64,000 nucleotides of DNA from Desulfobulbaceae bacterium (GTDB lineage Bacteria > Bacteroidota > Ignavibacteria > Kapaibacteriales > UBA2268), in contig JAGXRP010000034.1 of assembly GCA_018335795.1 (NCBI GenBank), forward strand, positions 62,001 through 126,000. Direction: 5' to 3'. The stretch's first letter is position 1. Each line of letters opens with the position of its first letter. The translations under genes were made by a program, and so were the position numbers. The notes under the pieces were generated by a model. It was given only the letters and a program-made list of their open reading frames with translations. It made no database searches and was not told the origin of the DNA. Shown here piece by piece: positions 13,698-20,604 of the stretch.

Positions 13698-15863
13698 ATG
13701 CTTCAAGTTATTCAATATCAGAAAAGTGGAAAGATTTCAGTCGAGCAAGTTCCGGCTCCGGAATGCCCTCCAAACGGCATCTTGGTGCGTAATCACTATT
13801 CGTTGATTAGCGCCGGAACCGAGAAAACGACTGTTACCAAGGCAAAGAGTTCGCTTTTTCAGCGTGCTCGCCGCCAACCCGAAGATTTGAAATTAGTACT
13901 TGATTTTATTAAAAAAGAGGGAATTCTCTCTACATTCAAGCGAATAAAAAACACACTTGATTCTTACAAGCCCTTGGGATATAGCTCAGCAGGGGAAGTT
14001 ATCGTGAGTAAATCCGATAAGTTCCAACCCGGAGATTTGGTCGCATGTGCCGGTGCCGGAATCGCTAATCATGCTGAAATTATCGCAGTACCGGAAAATC
14101 TTGCAGTGAAAATTCCCGATGGTGTGAGTGCAAAGCAAGCCTCATTCGCTACTTTGGGAGCGATTGCAATGCAGGGAGTCAGACAAGCTCAACCTCGAAT
14201 CGGCGAATCAGTAGCCGTAATCGGACTTGGGCTTATCGGCAATATTACAGTTCAGCTATTAAAAGCATCAGGTTGCAGAGTCGCAGGCTTGGATATTGAC
14301 TCATCATTATTTGAAAATGCCAAACTATGCGGATGTGATGAAACATTCTTATCAGATTCCGCCGCTGTTCCAAAATTAAACGAATTCACTCGTGGCGCAG
14401 GTTTTGACTCAGTCATTCTTACTGCAGGGACATCTTCAAACGTGCCGGTTGAATTGGCTATGGAAATAGTTCGTAAAAAAGGGACCGTCGTCGTTGTGGG
14501 CGCTGTTGGGATGAATATTCCTCGCACTCATTTTTATTTAAAAGAAGTTGATTTCAAAATTTCTTCAAGCTATGGTCCCGGGCGATACGACCCGGATTAC
14601 GAATCCAAAGGAATTGACTATCCGATTGCATATGTACGATGGACTGAAAATCGAAATATGCAATCAATCCTGGATTTGATTGCGATGGGCAAACTTAATA
14701 CCGATATTATTACTTCTCATACTTTCGATTTGAATGATGCTAATAAAGCATATTCAATGATAACAGGTGAAGTAGATGATAAATACACGGGAATTGTACT
14801 AAAATATGACAATACGAAAAATGAAATTGTCAAATCAATATCAAGCGCCAAAGTTGAAAAAAATCCAAATCCCGGAATCGGCTTTATCGGGCTTGGTACA
14901 TTTGCTCAAAATTATCTGATTCCGCCTCTCAAATCTGCAAATGCAAATTTGGTTGCCGTGGCATCCAATACGCCAATCAACGCAAAAACAGCTGCCGAAC
15001 GCAATGGATTTGCAGTTTGCACGACTGACGGTTTGGAAGTTATCAATAAAGCTGACGTGAGTGTAGTTTTTTGTGCTACAAGGCACGATAGCCATGCACA
15101 ATTTGTAACTGCATCGCTCAAAGCAGGGAAGCCAATATTTGTCGAAAAGCCTCTTGCTATTAACTACGAGGAACTTGAGCAAATCATAGAAACCTACCAA
15201 GCAACTAAAACACCACTCATGGTTGGGTTTAACCGAAGATTTTCAAGAGCATTTACAGAAATCAAGAAGCAAATTGCCGGCAGAACATATCCGATTGTTA
15301 TGACTTATCGCGTAAATGCAGGTTTTATTCCCAAAACTCATTGGGTGCAATCGCCCGAACAAGGCGGCAGAATTATCGGCGAAGTATGTCATTTCGTAGA
15401 TTGCATGGTCTATCTGACGGGTTCATTGCCAAAAACTGTTTTTGCAACTAGTGTTTCAAGCGATAATATCGCTGATACAGACAGCGATAATATATCAATT
15501 AATCTTACTTTTGCTGATGGTAGTATTGGGAATATTATCTATACAGCAAAAGGTGGTGCGATGATGCCAAAAGAATATTGCGAAGTTTTTGCATCTAATG
15601 TAAGTTATATTATGGATAATTTCAATAAAATGACTATATTCGATAAAAGTGGAACGAAAATTATCGAAACAGGTGGAATGAAAGGAATCAATGAAGAAGT
15701 CGCAAAATTTATGAATTCGATTACAAATGGATTGCCAATGCCGATTACTCCGCAGGAAATTTTCGCTGTTACTGAAGCGACTTTCGTGGCTGTCGAATCT
15801 CTCAAGACCGGATTACCGGGCACTCTTAAATATACATGGAATAAAACTACTGAGGTCTCATGA
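13698..15863 (+). CDS. Bi-domain oxidoreductase: Zn-type alcohol dehydrogenase fused to Gfo/Idh/MocA
   Basis: A 721-residue fusion. Residues 1-370 form a medium-chain dehydrogenase/reductase with the N-terminal GroES-like domain (RNHYSLISAGTEKTTV, GYSSAGEVI) and a Rossmann motif AVIGLGLIGN near residues 173-182. Residues about 390-721 are a Gfo/Idh/MocA oxidoreductase, with a second Rossmann motif GFIGLGTFAQNYL from residue 394 and the EKPLA lysine motif near 481. Such fusions occur in many bacterial cell-surface polysaccharide or sialic-acid-like sugar loci, and the likely substrate is a nucleotide sugar or glycan-derived sugar. The stop overlaps the next gene by four bases (ATGA), which ties it to the membrane GH2-like protein. 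Confidence 0.9.
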   Translation: MLQVIQYQKSGKISVEQVPAPECPPNGILVRNHYSLISAGTEKTTVTKAKSSLFQRARRQPEDLKLVLDFIKKEGILSTFKRIKNTLDSYKPLGYSSAGEVIVSKSDKFQPGDLVACAGAGIANHAEIIAVPENLAVKIPDGVSAKQASFATLGAIAMQGVRQAQPRIGESVAVIGLGLIGNITVQLLKASGCRVAGLDIDSSLFENAKLCGCDETFLSDSAAVPKLNEFTRGAGFDSVILTAGTSSNVPVELAMEIVRKKGTVVVVGAVGMNIPRTHFYLKEVDFKISSSYGPGRYDPDYESKGIDYPIAYVRWTENRNMQSILDLIAMGKLNTDIITSHTFDLNDANKAYSMITGEVDDKYTGIVLKYDNTKNEIVKSISSAKVEKNPNPGIGFIGLGTFAQNYLIPPLKSANANLVAVASNTPINAKTAAERNGFAVCTTDGLEVINKADVSVVFCATRHDSHAQFVTASLKAGKPIFVEKPLAINYEELEQIIETYQATKTPLMVGFNRRFSRAFTEIKKQIAGRTYPIVMTYRVNAGFIPKTHWVQSPEQGGRIIGEVCHFVDCMVYLTGSLPKTVFATSVSSDNIADTDSDNISINLTFADGSIGNIIYTAKGGAMMPKEYCEVFASNVSYIMDNFNKMTIFDKSGTKIIETGGMKGINEEVAKFMNSITNGLPMPITPQEIFAVTEATFVAVESLKTGLPGTLKYTWNKTTEVS

Positions 15864-18454
15864 AAAGAATAGCACTTATAATTCTGACACTTTTAATTGT
15901 GATTGTTGTACAATCTTTCGGGTACACTCCTTTAAGCAAATCAAATATCGAAGAAATTGTTCCTTCGACAACAAGGTTAGTGACCGATTTGTCTGGCAAT
16001 TGGGAGCATTCTTACAACGAAGTTGATTGGCGCGCAGTCAAATTGCCATATTCAGAAGAATCAAACCGCCAAAGTATTTACAAACGTGCGGTGGTGCTTC
16101 CTGAAAAACTTTCAGAATCTTATTCGTGGCAATTATTTTTTCTTGGGATTGACCACCAAATCGAAGTCTATTGGAATGACCAATTCATAGGTCGTTACTT
16201 TGGTGGTTTGGTACCTTTTGAAGTTAAAATTCCAGATAGAGTTATCAGGGGCGGAACAAATTCAGTCAAACTTGTCATTTCGCCTGCCCGTAGCAGCACT
16301 AAGATGATTCGGACTCAACATCTTTTGGCGAGGAAAATCTATACAGGCGTCATACGCGAGATACTTTTATGTGGCACACCTCATGTTTGGATTTCGGATA
16401 TTGGACTTAAGACTACTTTCAACGATAATATGAGTTTGGCGAATATCGCTACAAAAATCAATGTTAGTGCCGGGAACTTGAAATATCTCGCTGTAAAAAA
16501 ACCCGAAAATGATTCAATAGGCATCATTTCTACAAATAAAGAAGAATATTCGGTAGATGTGAAAGTCAAATCTGCTGATGAAGCTTTGCTTTTGAATTCT
16601 GAACGAAAAGTATTTACTATCGAAAGTGAAAGAACCGCCATAGTTCCTATTTCTTTTTCTTTATCGAATCCTAATCTTTGGAGCCCGGATAATCCTTATC
16701 TTTATATAGCCGAAATTACAGTCTATAAAGGTGGAATCAAAATTGATGATTACACACTTAATTTTGGTGTCAAAGAACTCGTCATAGTCAAAGATGACAA
16801 TAAACCTCAAATTTTACTGAACCGACAACCGTTTAAGATAAAGGGTGTAGGCTATATAGAAGATATTGCTAATGGTGGGCAAACTTTGTTTTTCAAGAGC
16901 ATGGTCGAAGATATTGAGATGATAAAAATCTTGGGAGCGAATTTTATACGCACAAAATACTCTCCTCCACACCCGCTATTTGTAAATTTATGCGACCGCA
17001 ATGGGATTTTGCTCGGAATAGATTTGCCCATTTATGATACTCCGATTCCGCTTTTGAATATGGACGAAATCCAAATTTATACCCTTAATATAGCCAAACA
17101 ATTCATAAGCGTTTATGATAATCATGCGAGTGTCTTTTCCTGGATTATATCTGACGGCGTTCCGGAATCCGATAATTCTAACAAAAGTTTTTATGATAAA
17201 ATAATCGAGGTATTCAGAAAAAATTCAAATAAGCTGTTGGCTAAAATCATTCCTTTTGGATTTTCAAATGTCCAAACGGAAGGATTTGATTTGATTGGTT
17301 TGCGAGATGCAAGGATGGATAACAATTTGTCCGAAGTAGTTGAAGAATTCGCGAAGCTCAAGAAATCCGCCGGAGGGCTGCCTGTGTTTATGAGCTATGG
17401 TTCTTTGATACAGCCCTTCAATCATAACGGATATAGCGACCCACTTTCAATCGAATCGCAATCATATAAGATTTTGAATACTTTTAAAATCGTAAATAAC
17501 AATAACGGCTCCGGTAGCTTAATTTCAAATTTCAATGACTATCTCCAACATAATCCGCTCTTAATAATAAATGGAGATGACCCCTATCTCAATACTGCCG
17601 GATTGGTGGACAGAGATAGGAACCAAAGGTTGACTTATTCTACGGTTCAAGCTATTTTCAATGATGAAAAAGACCCATTGTTGAACGCAGGAAGCCACAG
17701 AGAATCCACTCCAATTTCATTTATTGCAGTTGGACTTGTTCTCGGCATCTTGTTAATTTTACTTGTTAACAGATTCCGTCGTTTTCGCGAATATTTGCTC
17801 CGTTCATTGCTTCGCCCATATAATTTTTATTCCGATATTCGCGACCAACGGATTATTTCATCATTACAAACAATATTGCTTGGAGTCCTGATTTCACTTA
17901 CAGTAGGAATTTACCTTGCATCTATTTTTTATTTTTACAAAGATAGTTTCGTTTTTCAATACGTTTTGATGTTAATAATTCCAAGCAAGGCACTGCAAAT
18001 AGCCTTCTACAAATTAATTTGGATGCCTGAAGTTACATTCGTCATAATATCTATAATCAGTTTGGGTTTAGCTTTTTTGACCGCTGCCTTAATCAAGGGA
18101 TTATCATTAGTATTTAGAGCCAGAGTGTATTTTAACGATTGTAACGTTTTGTCTTTTTGGGCAGCTTTACCGGCGATTTTATTGTTGCCGATTTCGATTA
18201 TTTTGATTAGAATATTGGCGATGTCACCTGCAACAATTTGGATTTTCATCCTGTTGTATCTATTTACAAGTACATGGACAATTGCAAGATTATTACGCTC
18301 TACGTCAATTTTATTTGATGTTCAAACACACCGAGTCTATTTTGCAGGGTTGATTTTGTTCGTTTTAATAATTGGAGTACCTCTTGTATTTTACCAAATT
18401 AACAATTCGATATTGGCTTATGCTCAGTATTTTATACAAATATTCTTGAGTTAA
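15860..18454 (+). CDS. GH2-like sandwich/barrel protein with C-terminal membrane domain, catalytic glutamates absent
   Basis: An 864-residue protein. After a signal peptide or anchor (residues 1-20) comes a GH2-type sugar-binding domain (SGNWEHSYNEVDWRAVKLP, and YTGVIREILL near 161-170). An immunoglobulin-like domain follows (NPNLWSPDNPYLYIAEITVY), then a barrel-like domain (FKIKGVGYIED, DIEMIKILGANFIRTKYSPPHP, ILLGIDLP). In active GH2 enzymes the acid/base lies in a W-x-x-x-N-E motif and the nucleophile in P-V-x-x-x-E-Y/F-G. Here they read SWIISDGVPE (427-436) and PVFMSYG (508-514), so both glutamates are missing at the aligned places. Residues 617-848 contain about six hydrophobic helices, absent from ordinary GH2 enzymes. 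It overlaps the upstream bi-domain oxidoreductase gene and precedes purC by four bases. A sugar-binding or sensing role is more likely than hydrolysis, but this is inference. Confidence 0.7.
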   Translation: MKRIALIILTLLIVIVVQSFGYTPLSKSNIEEIVPSTTRLVTDLSGNWEHSYNEVDWRAVKLPYSEESNRQSIYKRAVVLPEKLSESYSWQLFFLGIDHQIEVYWNDQFIGRYFGGLVPFEVKIPDRVIRGGTNSVKLVISPARSSTKMIRTQHLLARKIYTGVIREILLCGTPHVWISDIGLKTTFNDNMSLANIATKINVSAGNLKYLAVKKPENDSIGIISTNKEEYSVDVKVKSADEALLLNSERKVFTIESERTAIVPISFSLSNPNLWSPDNPYLYIAEITVYKGGIKIDDYTLNFGVKELVIVKDDNKPQILLNRQPFKIKGVGYIEDIANGGQTLFFKSMVEDIEMIKILGANFIRTKYSPPHPLFVNLCDRNGILLGIDLPIYDTPIPLLNMDEIQIYTLNIAKQFISVYDNHASVFSWIISDGVPESDNSNKSFYDKIIEVFRKNSNKLLAKIIPFGFSNVQTEGFDLIGLRDARMDNNLSEVVEEFAKLKKSAGGLPVFMSYGSLIQPFNHNGYSDPLSIESQSYKILNTFKIVNNNNGSGSLISNFNDYLQHNPLLIINGDDPYLNTAGLVDRDRNQRLTYSTVQAIFNDEKDPLLNAGSHRESTPISFIAVGLVLGILLILLVNRFRRFREYLLRSLLRPYNFYSDIRDQRIISSLQTILLGVLISLTVGIYLASIFYFYKDSFVFQYVLMLIIPSKALQIAFYKLIWMPEVTFVIISIISLGLAFLTAALIKGLSLVFRARVYFNDCNVLSFWAALPAILLLPISIILIRILAMSPATIWIFILLYLFTSTWTIARLLRSTSILFDVQTHRVYFAGLILFVLIIGVPLVFYQINNSILAYAQYFIQIFLS

Positions 18455-18458
18455 ATTT

Positions 18459-19355
18459 ATGAAAGCACTATACGAAACTGATTTGCAGGGTTTCAACCTT
18501 GTTCGCAAAGGCAAAGTTCGCGATGTTTATGACCTCGGAGAAAATCTGCTATTTGTCGCAACTGATAGGATTTCGGCTTTTGATGTAATTATGCGGCAAC
18601 CTGTCCCTCAAAAAGGTGCAATTTTGAGCCGAATTTCAGCTTTTTGGTTCGCTCAAACAGGGCATCTAATCAAGAATCATTTCCAAACTATGGAAGTGAC
18701 GGAATATCCCGAAAAATTAGCAGTCTATAGGAAAATACTCAAAGACCGCTCAATGATTGTTGCAAAAGCAACGCCGTTTCCGATTGAATGTGTTGTTAGG
18801 GGATATTTGGCAGGTTCGGGATGGAAGGAATACCAATCAAATCGTGCGGTTTGCGGAATTGATTTGCCCGAAGGATTAGTACAATACGGGCAATTACCCG
18901 AGCCAATATACACTCCCGCCACAAAAGCTGAATCGGGTCACGACGAAAATATATCTTTCGAACAATCAACCGCCATCATCGGTGAAAAAGATGCTTCTTT
19001 CCTGAGAGATATTTCATTGAAAATATACAAATTCGCTCATGAATTCATGTTGCAACGAGGCATTATACTTGCGGACACAAAATTTGAATTCGGCAAAAAT
19101 TCGGATGGCGAAATAATTTTGATTGATGAAGTACTAACGCCCGATTCATCTCGTTTTTGGCTCAAGGAAACATACAAACCCGGTGAAGAACAATACAATT
19201 TCGACAAACAAATTTTGCGTGACTATTTGGAAACCATTGCTTGGAATAAACAAGCACCAGCTCCCGAACTTCCCGATGAAATCTTGTATTTCACATTGGA
19301 AAAATATAAAAAAGCATACGAACTAATAACCGGCGATACTTGGGAATCGGAATAA
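18459..19355 (+). CDS. purC: Phosphoribosylaminoimidazole-succinocarboxamide synthase
   Basis: A 298-residue SAICAR synthetase of purine biosynthesis. It joins CAIR and aspartate with ATP hydrolysis. Family blocks are present: RKGKVRDVYDLGENLLFVATDRISAFD at the N-terminus, ECVVRGYLAGSGWKEY in the middle, and GIILADTKFEFGKN followed by IDEVLTPDSSRFW. The length matches the yeast Ade1/long bacterial form. It starts four bases after the GH2-like gene and ends four bases before rodA, so it is embedded in a longer transcription unit. A second purine gene (purN) lies 42 kb away in this window, so the pathway genes are scattered. Confidence 0.97.
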   Translation: MKALYETDLQGFNLVRKGKVRDVYDLGENLLFVATDRISAFDVIMRQPVPQKGAILSRISAFWFAQTGHLIKNHFQTMEVTEYPEKLAVYRKILKDRSMIVAKATPFPIECVVRGYLAGSGWKEYQSNRAVCGIDLPEGLVQYGQLPEPIYTPATKAESGHDENISFEQSTAIIGEKDASFLRDISLKIYKFAHEFMLQRGIILADTKFEFGKNSDGEIILIDEVLTPDSSRFWLKETYKPGEEQYNFDKQILRDYLETIAWNKQAPAPELPDEILYFTLEKYKKAYELITGDTWESE

Positions 19356-19359
19356 TTAT

Positions 19360-20604
19360 ATGAAGCCAAAGCCTTTGTTCGTTAATGACCCAAAAGTTGT
19401 AGCAATTGATTGGTTACTAATGATCCCTGTATTGCTTTTAATTGTTGCCGGCTTAATATCTATTTATAGTTCGACTGCTGACGCCGACGCTTCCTCTTAT
19501 TTTTTCAGACAATTAACTGCCGTAGGACTTGGTCTTGTGGTTATGATTGTCATCGTATTTCTACCGAAAAATTTTGTCAATACTGCTTCACCGTATGTTT
19601 ATAGTGGAAGTGTATTGTTACTACTGATTGTGCTCTTATTTGGTACTGAAATTTACGGAACGAAGGGATGGTTAAGAATTGGTAGTTTTTCATTACAACC
19701 TGCAGAATTGGCAAAATTAGGATTACTTCTCGGATTGGCGAAATATATTTCGTCAAAAGGTGTGGACGTTGGTAATATACGAGGCAGTGGAATTTCATTC
19801 GTTTTAACCATCATTCCTGCTGTGTTGATTTATTTGCAACCTGACCATGGAACTGCAACAGTTATTGCTGCCATACTAGGTGGTGTATTATATTGGGCCG
19901 GTTTCAATCCCTTTATTATATTCTTCGTTTTAGTAATACCTGTCCTAATTTTGCTCGCACTTAAAGGTTTTGTTTTTTATGTCGTTGGTGCGGTTTTATT
20001 TTCAGGAATAGCCGTGTTATTCAAACGTAAAATAGTTTTGACGGCAATTGCAATCGGTATCTTCGTTGCAATTGGCTTCATTGCACCTTTAGTTTACGGT
20101 AGTTTACAAGACCACCAAAAATCAAGAATCGAGACATTTCTCAACCCGGGCAATGACCCTCGCGGAACGGGTTATAATGTGATTCAATCGAAAATGGCAG
20201 TCGGGAGTGGTGGACTGACAGGCAAAGGATTTATGCAAGGAACTCAAACTCAACTCAGGTATATCCCAATGCAAAGGACGGATTTCATTTATTCAGTCCC
20301 TACAGAAGAGTTTGGCTTTCTGGGTGGAGCTTCTGTATTGGTGCTCCTTTGTATAATATTAGTTCGATTAGTATCGCTTGCTTCGATGTTCGATAAATTT
20401 TCTAGTGTAATCGCAGCAGGGACAGCTATTATGTTCCTCTATCATTGTACGATTAATATCGGGATGGTTATAGGTTTGATACCTGTTATGGGGATACCAT
20501 TGCCATTTATGAGCTATGGCGGAACTTCAATGTTGGTTAATTTAGCTGTTATAGGGATTATACTTAACAGCTACCGCAATCACAAAATCAAGCGAAATGT
20601 CTAA
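19360..20604 (+). CDS. rodA: Rod-shape determining SEDS glycosyltransferase
   Basis: A 414-residue polytopic membrane protein of the SEDS (FtsW/RodA/SpoVE) family, which polymerises lipid II into peptidoglycan together with a class B penicillin-binding protein. Visible family signatures are LQPAELAKLGLLLGLAKY, YLQPDHGTATV (with the conserved aspartate), a ten-helix pattern, and VIGLIPVMGIPLPFMSYGGTSML near the C-terminus. RodA is preferred over FtsW because of the sequence flavour and the absence of cell-division genes around it. The usual rodA neighbours (mreBCD, mrdA) are not in the window. Spacing of four bases from purC suggests co-transcription. Confidence 0.92.
   Translation: MKPKPLFVNDPKVVAIDWLLMIPVLLLIVAGLISIYSSTADADASSYFFRQLTAVGLGLVVMIVIVFLPKNFVNTASPYVYSGSVLLLLIVLLFGTEIYGTKGWLRIGSFSLQPAELAKLGLLLGLAKYISSKGVDVGNIRGSGISFVLTIIPAVLIYLQPDHGTATVIAAILGGVLYWAGFNPFIIFFVLVIPVLILLALKGFVFYVVGAVLFSGIAVLFKRKIVLTAIAIGIFVAIGFIAPLVYGSLQDHQKSRIETFLNPGNDPRGTGYNVIQSKMAVGSGGLTGKGFMQGTQTQLRYIPMQRTDFIYSVPTEEFGFLGGASVLVLLCIILVRLVSLASMFDKFSSVIAAGTAIMFLYHCTINIGMVIGLIPVMGIPLPFMSYGGTSMLVNLAVIGIILNSYRNHKIKRNV

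Follow-up and report, generated by a model that had tools for sequence, protein, structure and literature searches.

A class-wide family of membrane proteins with a GH2-type ectodomain that has lost the catalytic glutamate pair

The locus described here raises the question of what a protein with GH2 domains and a membrane domain could be for if both catalytic glutamates are missing. It lies in a stretch of 64,000 nucleotides, analysed as a whole and called the window in the following. Its reading frame is unbroken through 864 residues, as the first-pass annotation had read it from the letters. The start codon overlaps the stop codon of the upstream oxidoreductase gene in the sequence ATGA (15860-15863), and purC and rodA follow downstream (Table 1). 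Because of this overlap and the two 4-bp gaps, oxidoreductase, pseudo-GH2 gene, purC and rodA look like one transcription unit. In a Pfam search of the window's genome, this protein is the only one that matches PF02836.

Table 1. Features of the pseudo-GH2 locus, in window coordinates.
Feature	Position	Strand	Basis
Bi-domain oxidoreductase (Zn-dehydrogenase + Gfo/Idh/MocA), upstream	13698..15863	+	Pfam; stop overlaps CDS start (ATGA)
CDS, pseudo-GH2 ectodomain and Yip1-like membrane domain, 864 aa	15860..18454	+	ORF, Pfam, profile alignment to solved GH2s
N-terminal hydrophobic signal or anchor, aa 1-26	15860..15937	+	hydropathy
GH2_N sugar-binding-type domain, aa 46-174	15995..16381	+	PF02837
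GH2 second domain, immunoglobulin-like, aa 224-304	16529..16771	+	PF00703
Degenerate TIM-barrel part, aa 316-612	16805..17695	+	PF02836 covers 316-431; family profile aligns up to profile position ~600-614 in solved GH2s
Acid/base site SWIISDG, residues 427-433; Gly433 (17156-17158) replaces GH2 Glu	17138..17158	+	alignments
Nucleophile site PVFMSYG, residues 508-514; no Glu between Ser512 (17393-17395) and Tyr513	17381..17401	+	alignments
Membrane domain, aa 618-864: a first helix that leaves the ectodomain, followed by the multi-helix Yip1-like part	17711..18451	+	hydropathy (helix number not settled), Yip1 matches
Juxtamembrane motif RRFREYLLRSLLRPYNFYSDIRDQR, aa 640-664, where conservation in the family peaks	17777..17851	+	alignments; probably cytoplasmic, side suggested by positive charge
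purC, 4 bp downstream of the pseudo-GH2 CDS	18459..19355	+	TIGR00081 over cut-off
rodA, 4 bp after purC	19360..20604	+	TIGR02210 over cut-off

The GH2 fold proposed in the first pass is visible in the domain assignment. All three GH2 domains occur in order and over their Pfam cut-offs, GH2_C with its first part only, and among 54 family members Pfam matches GH2 in 53, GH2_C in 52 and GH2_N in 47. NCBIfam enzyme models (PRK10150 beta-glucuronidase and several beta-galactosidases) match far below their cut-offs, the best with 127.5 of 544 bits. With the GH2 beta-glucuronidases and beta-galactosidases the family shares the domain order and, by sequence, the fold, its profile matching 8dhe with E=1.1e-64 and 5uj6 with E=6.6e-61. 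Unlike them, it is without the catalytic pair, has mostly lost the His and Trp of the pocket and has gained a membrane domain. Judged from sequence, the family belongs to GH2 by descent and domain order, but probably not as an enzyme. Pfam scores it as GH2 even though the catalytic pair is lacking, so that enzyme counts for these bacteria may wrongly include its members.

The helical membrane domain that had been annotated behind the GH2 part is found in the C-terminal ~250 residues, which contain several hydrophobic stretches in a number of helices that hydropathy does not fix firmly. Proteins of the Yip1 domain family have five transmembrane helices. Residues 649-842 of the window protein match Yip1 (PF04893) with 18.0 bits and thus below the cut-off of 28.6 bits; 25/54 members match at E<=0.01, and a stand-alone membrane form (L138) exceeds the Pfam cut-off with 32.8 bits. 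The difference from Yip1 domain proteins, beyond the score of the window protein, lies in the fusion to a GH2-like ectodomain and in a strongly conserved juxtamembrane motif of the family's own. A profile of the membrane domain gave no match in the PDB better than E 0.033, and AlphaFold on the single window sequence reached a mean pLDDT of 36.8 with no residue at 70 or above. The combined architecture, for which the annotation had proposed an HMM search, that is GH2 domains followed by a multi-helix Yip1-like membrane domain, was found throughout the window's order and class.

For the catalytic residues, the profile of the 54 members (A1) was aligned to solved GH2 chains. A profile Gly stands opposite the acid/base Glu, and the nucleophile Glu falls into an insert column, flanked in the profile by Ser and an aromatic residue. 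This is seen in 5/5 alignments shown, of which three concern chains that look near-identical, leaving about three distinct proteins. In the window protein the acid/base motif reads SWIISDG without Glu, as annotated, Gly433 occupying the position in the profile alignment. For PVFMSYG, the first-pass annotation had noted that it looks as if exactly the glutamate codon were missing and had pointed to the codon that we find to be that of Ser512. The insert column makes this a fair reading; MAFFT instead aligns Ser512 to the nucleophile Glu, in a strand that is one residue shorter.

The MAFFT alignment combines 102 members with five ordinary GH2 paralogues (L133-L137), of which two belong to the window's order and three to other orders of its class; these five are the only controls and the only outgroup. 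Before the 102 were counted, identical copies, ORFs no longer than 600 aa, L092 and the broken copy of L069 had been removed; several remaining rows are cut at contig ends, and close relatives among them are not independent. Glu at both catalytic columns occurs in 0/102 members and in 5/5 ordinary GH2 paralogues. A single Glu is kept at the acid/base column only in 9/102 and at the nucleophile column only in 21/102; the latter column further contains Asp in 2 members and is without an acidic residue in 79/102, three of these being gaps. Among L107-L129, many of them from families f12 and f17, many keep the nucleophile-column Glu in an altered motif (SEATY, SEVTY) with Gly or Ser at the acid/base site, perhaps a separate re-use of the pocket. 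Conservation of the Glu loss in homologues had been set as a test beforehand, and the loss is conserved: even if two columns of slack are allowed per site, Glu is present at both in 3/102 (L033, L035, L079).

The remainder of the pocket has eroded as well. The His of the R-x-x-H-Y-P motif is present in 4/5 ordinary GH2s versus 10/102 members, and the Trp before the conserved Asp in 4/5 versus 32/102. Counted over four pocket and catalytic residues, 41 of the 102 members retain none, 50 one and 11 two, and never more than two are kept. FastTree splits the 102 members from the five ordinary GH2s with support 99, and both catalytic sites change state repeatedly on this tree, with minima of 9 and 10 changes. 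Our reading is that the catalytic pair was lost ancestrally and that single sites drifted afterwards, the changes on the tree being compatible with loss and gain alike. Loss of catalysis is strongly supported by the aligned residues, and from it we infer a lack of glycosidase activity. The loss of the catalytic pair is a trait of the family and not a local accident.

Acidic residues do recur near the acid/base site, at column 432 in 51/102 members and at column 436 in another count of 51/102 (Glu 44, Asp 7). They could serve an enzyme that is still active, either because its catalytic acids have moved, for instance to Asp432 or Glu436, or because it uses other chemistry. The three members with Glu within two columns of both sites would fit this, and an excerpt of a review on the action modes of pseudoenzymes (PMC10211241) includes migrated active residues, used by some pseudoenzymes, next to scaffolding. 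However, columns 432 and 436 are both variable and neither is invariantly acidic, the nucleophile column is non-acidic in 79/102, and short forms of the protein lose still more of the ectodomain. We regard such an enzyme as very improbable.

The draft state of the genome (82 contigs) and one homologue broken into three frames (G037) could speak for a sequencing error or a decaying pseudogene. Against this, the gene is 91-92% identical in two sister genomes, where both sites have the residues of the window protein, and dN/dS over the whole gene is 0.040-0.044 for the window gene and the two sister genomes. These two results rule the explanation out, with a probability that we consider negligible. 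Between the same three genomes, the barrel has a dN/dS of 0.023-0.049, the membrane part one of 0.024-0.042 and the beta domains one of 0.051-0.066; dS exceeds 1 for both pairs that include the window, so these ratios are rough, and the third pair (dS 0.49) agrees. A homologue in Ignavibacteriae bacterium HGW-Ignavibacteriae-1 is 90% identical over its full length. The gene is kept under purifying selection. Together with the profile alignment and the count of 0/102, dN/dS supports the annotated GH2-derived, membrane-anchored protein that has lost its catalytic pair. The homologue in three frames (L069, G037:C1:1988827-1999919) lies in a single-contig genome and reflects either base-call errors or a decaying gene.

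With the full-length protein as query, matches are found in 60/60 near relatives, some copies being partial or broken. Searched with a profile restricted to the membrane domain (A2, E<=0.001), 118/395 sampled genomes of the phylum match; counted among the matches listed, these are 96/98 of the window's class and 22 others. What began as a curiosity of one draft genome is a class-wide gene family. The two genomes of the class that are left without a match differ in kind. For G208 a gap in the assembly is likely, since a match to smc is also absent there, and G256 is a true loss, because smc is present and a neighbouring ORF at about 180 bp leaves no room for the gene. In family f28 the membrane domain was not found in 18/18 genomes. 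With these absences in G256 and f28, the gene is dispensable.

Full-length proteins are the rule in the window's class, and shorter forms occur within and beyond it. In G215, which belongs to the same family as G256 (f18), the gene encodes 258 aa, consisting of the membrane part, in which the Arg motif reads RRFREYAGRSLIRPFNFFADIRDGR, and lies 134 bp before smc (L138). Family f18 is a natural deletion series, L138:3944-4717 keeping the membrane domain only and the genome of L190 being without the gene. The class of G140 contains a form of roughly 480-640 aa with a barrel remnant and the membrane domain and without the two beta domains. On six such short forms the full-family profile aligns from its position ~350 to 820-850, with E=6e-18 to 7e-42 in five of the six and in two pieces in the sixth (L184). 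A profile of these six matched 158/195 genomes of the G140 class, weak matches included, and in some short-form families little of the barrel is left. When 99 genomes from a further class were searched with the short-form profile, 7 matched, and the matches were confined to portions of the barrel.

The mean share of the majority residue is 0.70 in the juxtamembrane motif, compared to 0.42 in the first beta domain, 0.33 in the second, 0.43 in the barrel and 0.40 in the remaining membrane part. Since this share is highest in the motif and some lineages have shed or reduced the ectodomain, membrane domain and juxtamembrane motif are the constant element of the family. Another reading would reduce the ectodomain to a mere spacer or folding platform and place all function, related to lipids or membrane shape, in the Yip1-like part. 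It accords with the peak of conservation at the motif, with L138 as a membrane domain on its own and with the reduced ectodomains in another class. We nevertheless hold it to be distinctly unlikely, as the ectodomain evolves with dN/dS of 0.02-0.07 in the window's genus and full-length proteins prevail in the class.

The gene neighbourhood was examined in 40 loci outside the window's order (L093-L132), which were fetched with long flanks and form part of the full-length matches. Genes were called with TIGR02168, TIGR00065 and Pfam for representatives and with phmmer for the rest; curated models confirm ftsZ in four loci and smc in one, the others being phmmer matches to these. In these other orders and classes smc lies directly downstream in 40/40 loci, and the same arrangement is found in L138, L189 and L239. 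The gap to smc is below 20 bp in 27 of 38 measured loci, and some smc ORFs overlap the family gene where an early start codon was taken. Upstream, tpiA is found in 21/40 of the loci.

In the short forms, ftsZ is the next gene upstream on the same strand in 24/47 genomes from six families, a sample composed of six first finds, best-scoring matches and 20 hand-picked regions and thus not a random draw. By family, f42 contributes 18/20 genomes and the rest 6/27, and two of the 23 loci without ftsZ begin at a contig end. In G062 about 965 bp separate ftsZ from the short-form gene. All 10 such loci that are long enough to show them have ftsA and ftsQ before ftsZ. One short-form locus (f31) has smc downstream, and two (f35) have uppP upstream.

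In the window's order, the window itself excluded, purC is adjacent in 11/40 loci and rodA follows in 10/40. With the window included, an hrcA cluster is present in 9/41 loci, and an SprA-type protein is encoded upstream on the opposite strand in likewise 9/41 (L031, L035, L040, L044, L049, L061, L063, L064, L069). The one that was checked, in L044, is SprA, the T9SS translocon. Other neighbours are gatB, hrcA-grpE-dnaJ and, read by eye, a sigma-54-like gene; families f34, f49 and f54 have different neighbours, also read by eye. The translational coupling to the bi-domain oxidoreductase that had been annotated is real in the window, where the ATGA overlap is found, but limited by lineage, the oxidoreductase being adjacent on the same strand in 12/41 loci of the order (40 and the window). 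As a general partner it is ruled out by this count.

These data bear on the function that the first-pass annotation had suggested, a repurposed sensor, scaffold or glycan-export component. Its general part stands, in that catalysis appears lost and the gene is kept by selection. The specific role as sugar sensor or export component, in which the old pocket would bind sugar, is unlikely, although it keeps some weight. GH2 domains remain recognisable in most members, the barrel is under strong purifying selection, and a sugar-type oxidoreductase is linked in the window. Yet the pocket His and Trp survive in 10 and 32 of 102 members, some lineages have shed or reduced the ectodomain, and the oxidoreductase link does not extend past the minority of loci given above. 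The recurrent neighbours that were identified are genes of housekeeping, growth and division, and in the examined loci none of them was recognised as an export gene.

The hydropathy layout consists of a hydrophobic stretch at residues 1-26, a helix at 618-636, an Arg-rich loop at 638-664 and more hydrophobic stretches up to 853. By the positive-inside rule, positively charged loops of membrane proteins tend to stay on the cytoplasmic side. From the layout and this rule we infer that the ectodomain is outside and the Arg-rich loop inside. Our preferred reading, to which we give a tentative and slightly less than even weight, is that of a conserved non-catalytic envelope protein whose ectodomain binds and whose membrane domain works with a partner in growth, division or segregation. 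A secreted GH2-type ectodomain, in which a degenerate TIM barrel follows two beta domains, would be anchored by the Yip1-like domain at the outer surface of the inner membrane. Its ligand, as a guess, might be a precursor of wall glycan or a second protein of the periplasm. The membrane domain might relay this binding to, or position, a partner inside the cell that belongs to the machinery of growth, division or segregation. The Arg-rich loop (RFRE...R..LRPYNFY.DIRDQR), probably cytoplasmic, would be the conserved business end.

The non-catalytic envelope role is supported by the loss of the catalytic pair, by architecture, conservation and purifying selection and by the neighbours smc, ftsZ and rodA. 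The neighbourhood suggests a role in cell growth, division or segregation with moderate to low confidence, and the protein probably serves growth or division as a scaffold or sensor, if its role can be read from gene order. Against such a role, gene order is inherited, so that the 40 smc loci cannot be counted as separate events, and genes may lie side by side without sharing a function. Most of the ftsZ loci come from f42, the gene is dispensable, and tpiA, gatB, purC, sprA and hrcA-grpE-dnaJ are neighbours as well. A more far-reaching version sees an undescribed growth or division component in several classes of the phylum, a Yip1-like protein with a cytoplasmic Arg motif that would cooperate with SMC, the Z-ring or the elongation complex and use a dead glycosidase, shrunk or discarded in some lineages, to sense the wall. 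We consider this version unlikely in its entirety; if the division link were true, the family would contribute a membrane component to the machinery of growth or division. In the open-licence PMC literature, which leaves out most subscription journals, we found no earlier description of the family.

The working principle of the preferred reading, a non-catalytic ectodomain that binds, has an analogy in the Klotho co-receptors, single-pass animal membrane proteins in which a glycosidase-like ectodomain binds a protein rather than cleaving sugar. An excerpt of PMC8465397 describes how the GH1-like pocket of beta-Klotho is engaged by the tail of FGF21, which mimics sugar. In contrast to the family described here, Klothos derive from another GH family (GH1-like), and no homology is claimed.

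Two single genomes deserve mention. An apparent GH2-SMC fusion (open frame 2081, G230) was rejected, as the ORF end and the gap identify two separate genes that share a reading frame and are divided by a stop codon. In G002 two copies of the block are present, L034 (G002:C27) and L003/L052 (G002:C26). L034 lies on the 8.3-kb contig C27 and is 82% identical to the copy of G026 (L036) versus 33% to the other copy of G002, and represents either a second copy or a contaminant contig.
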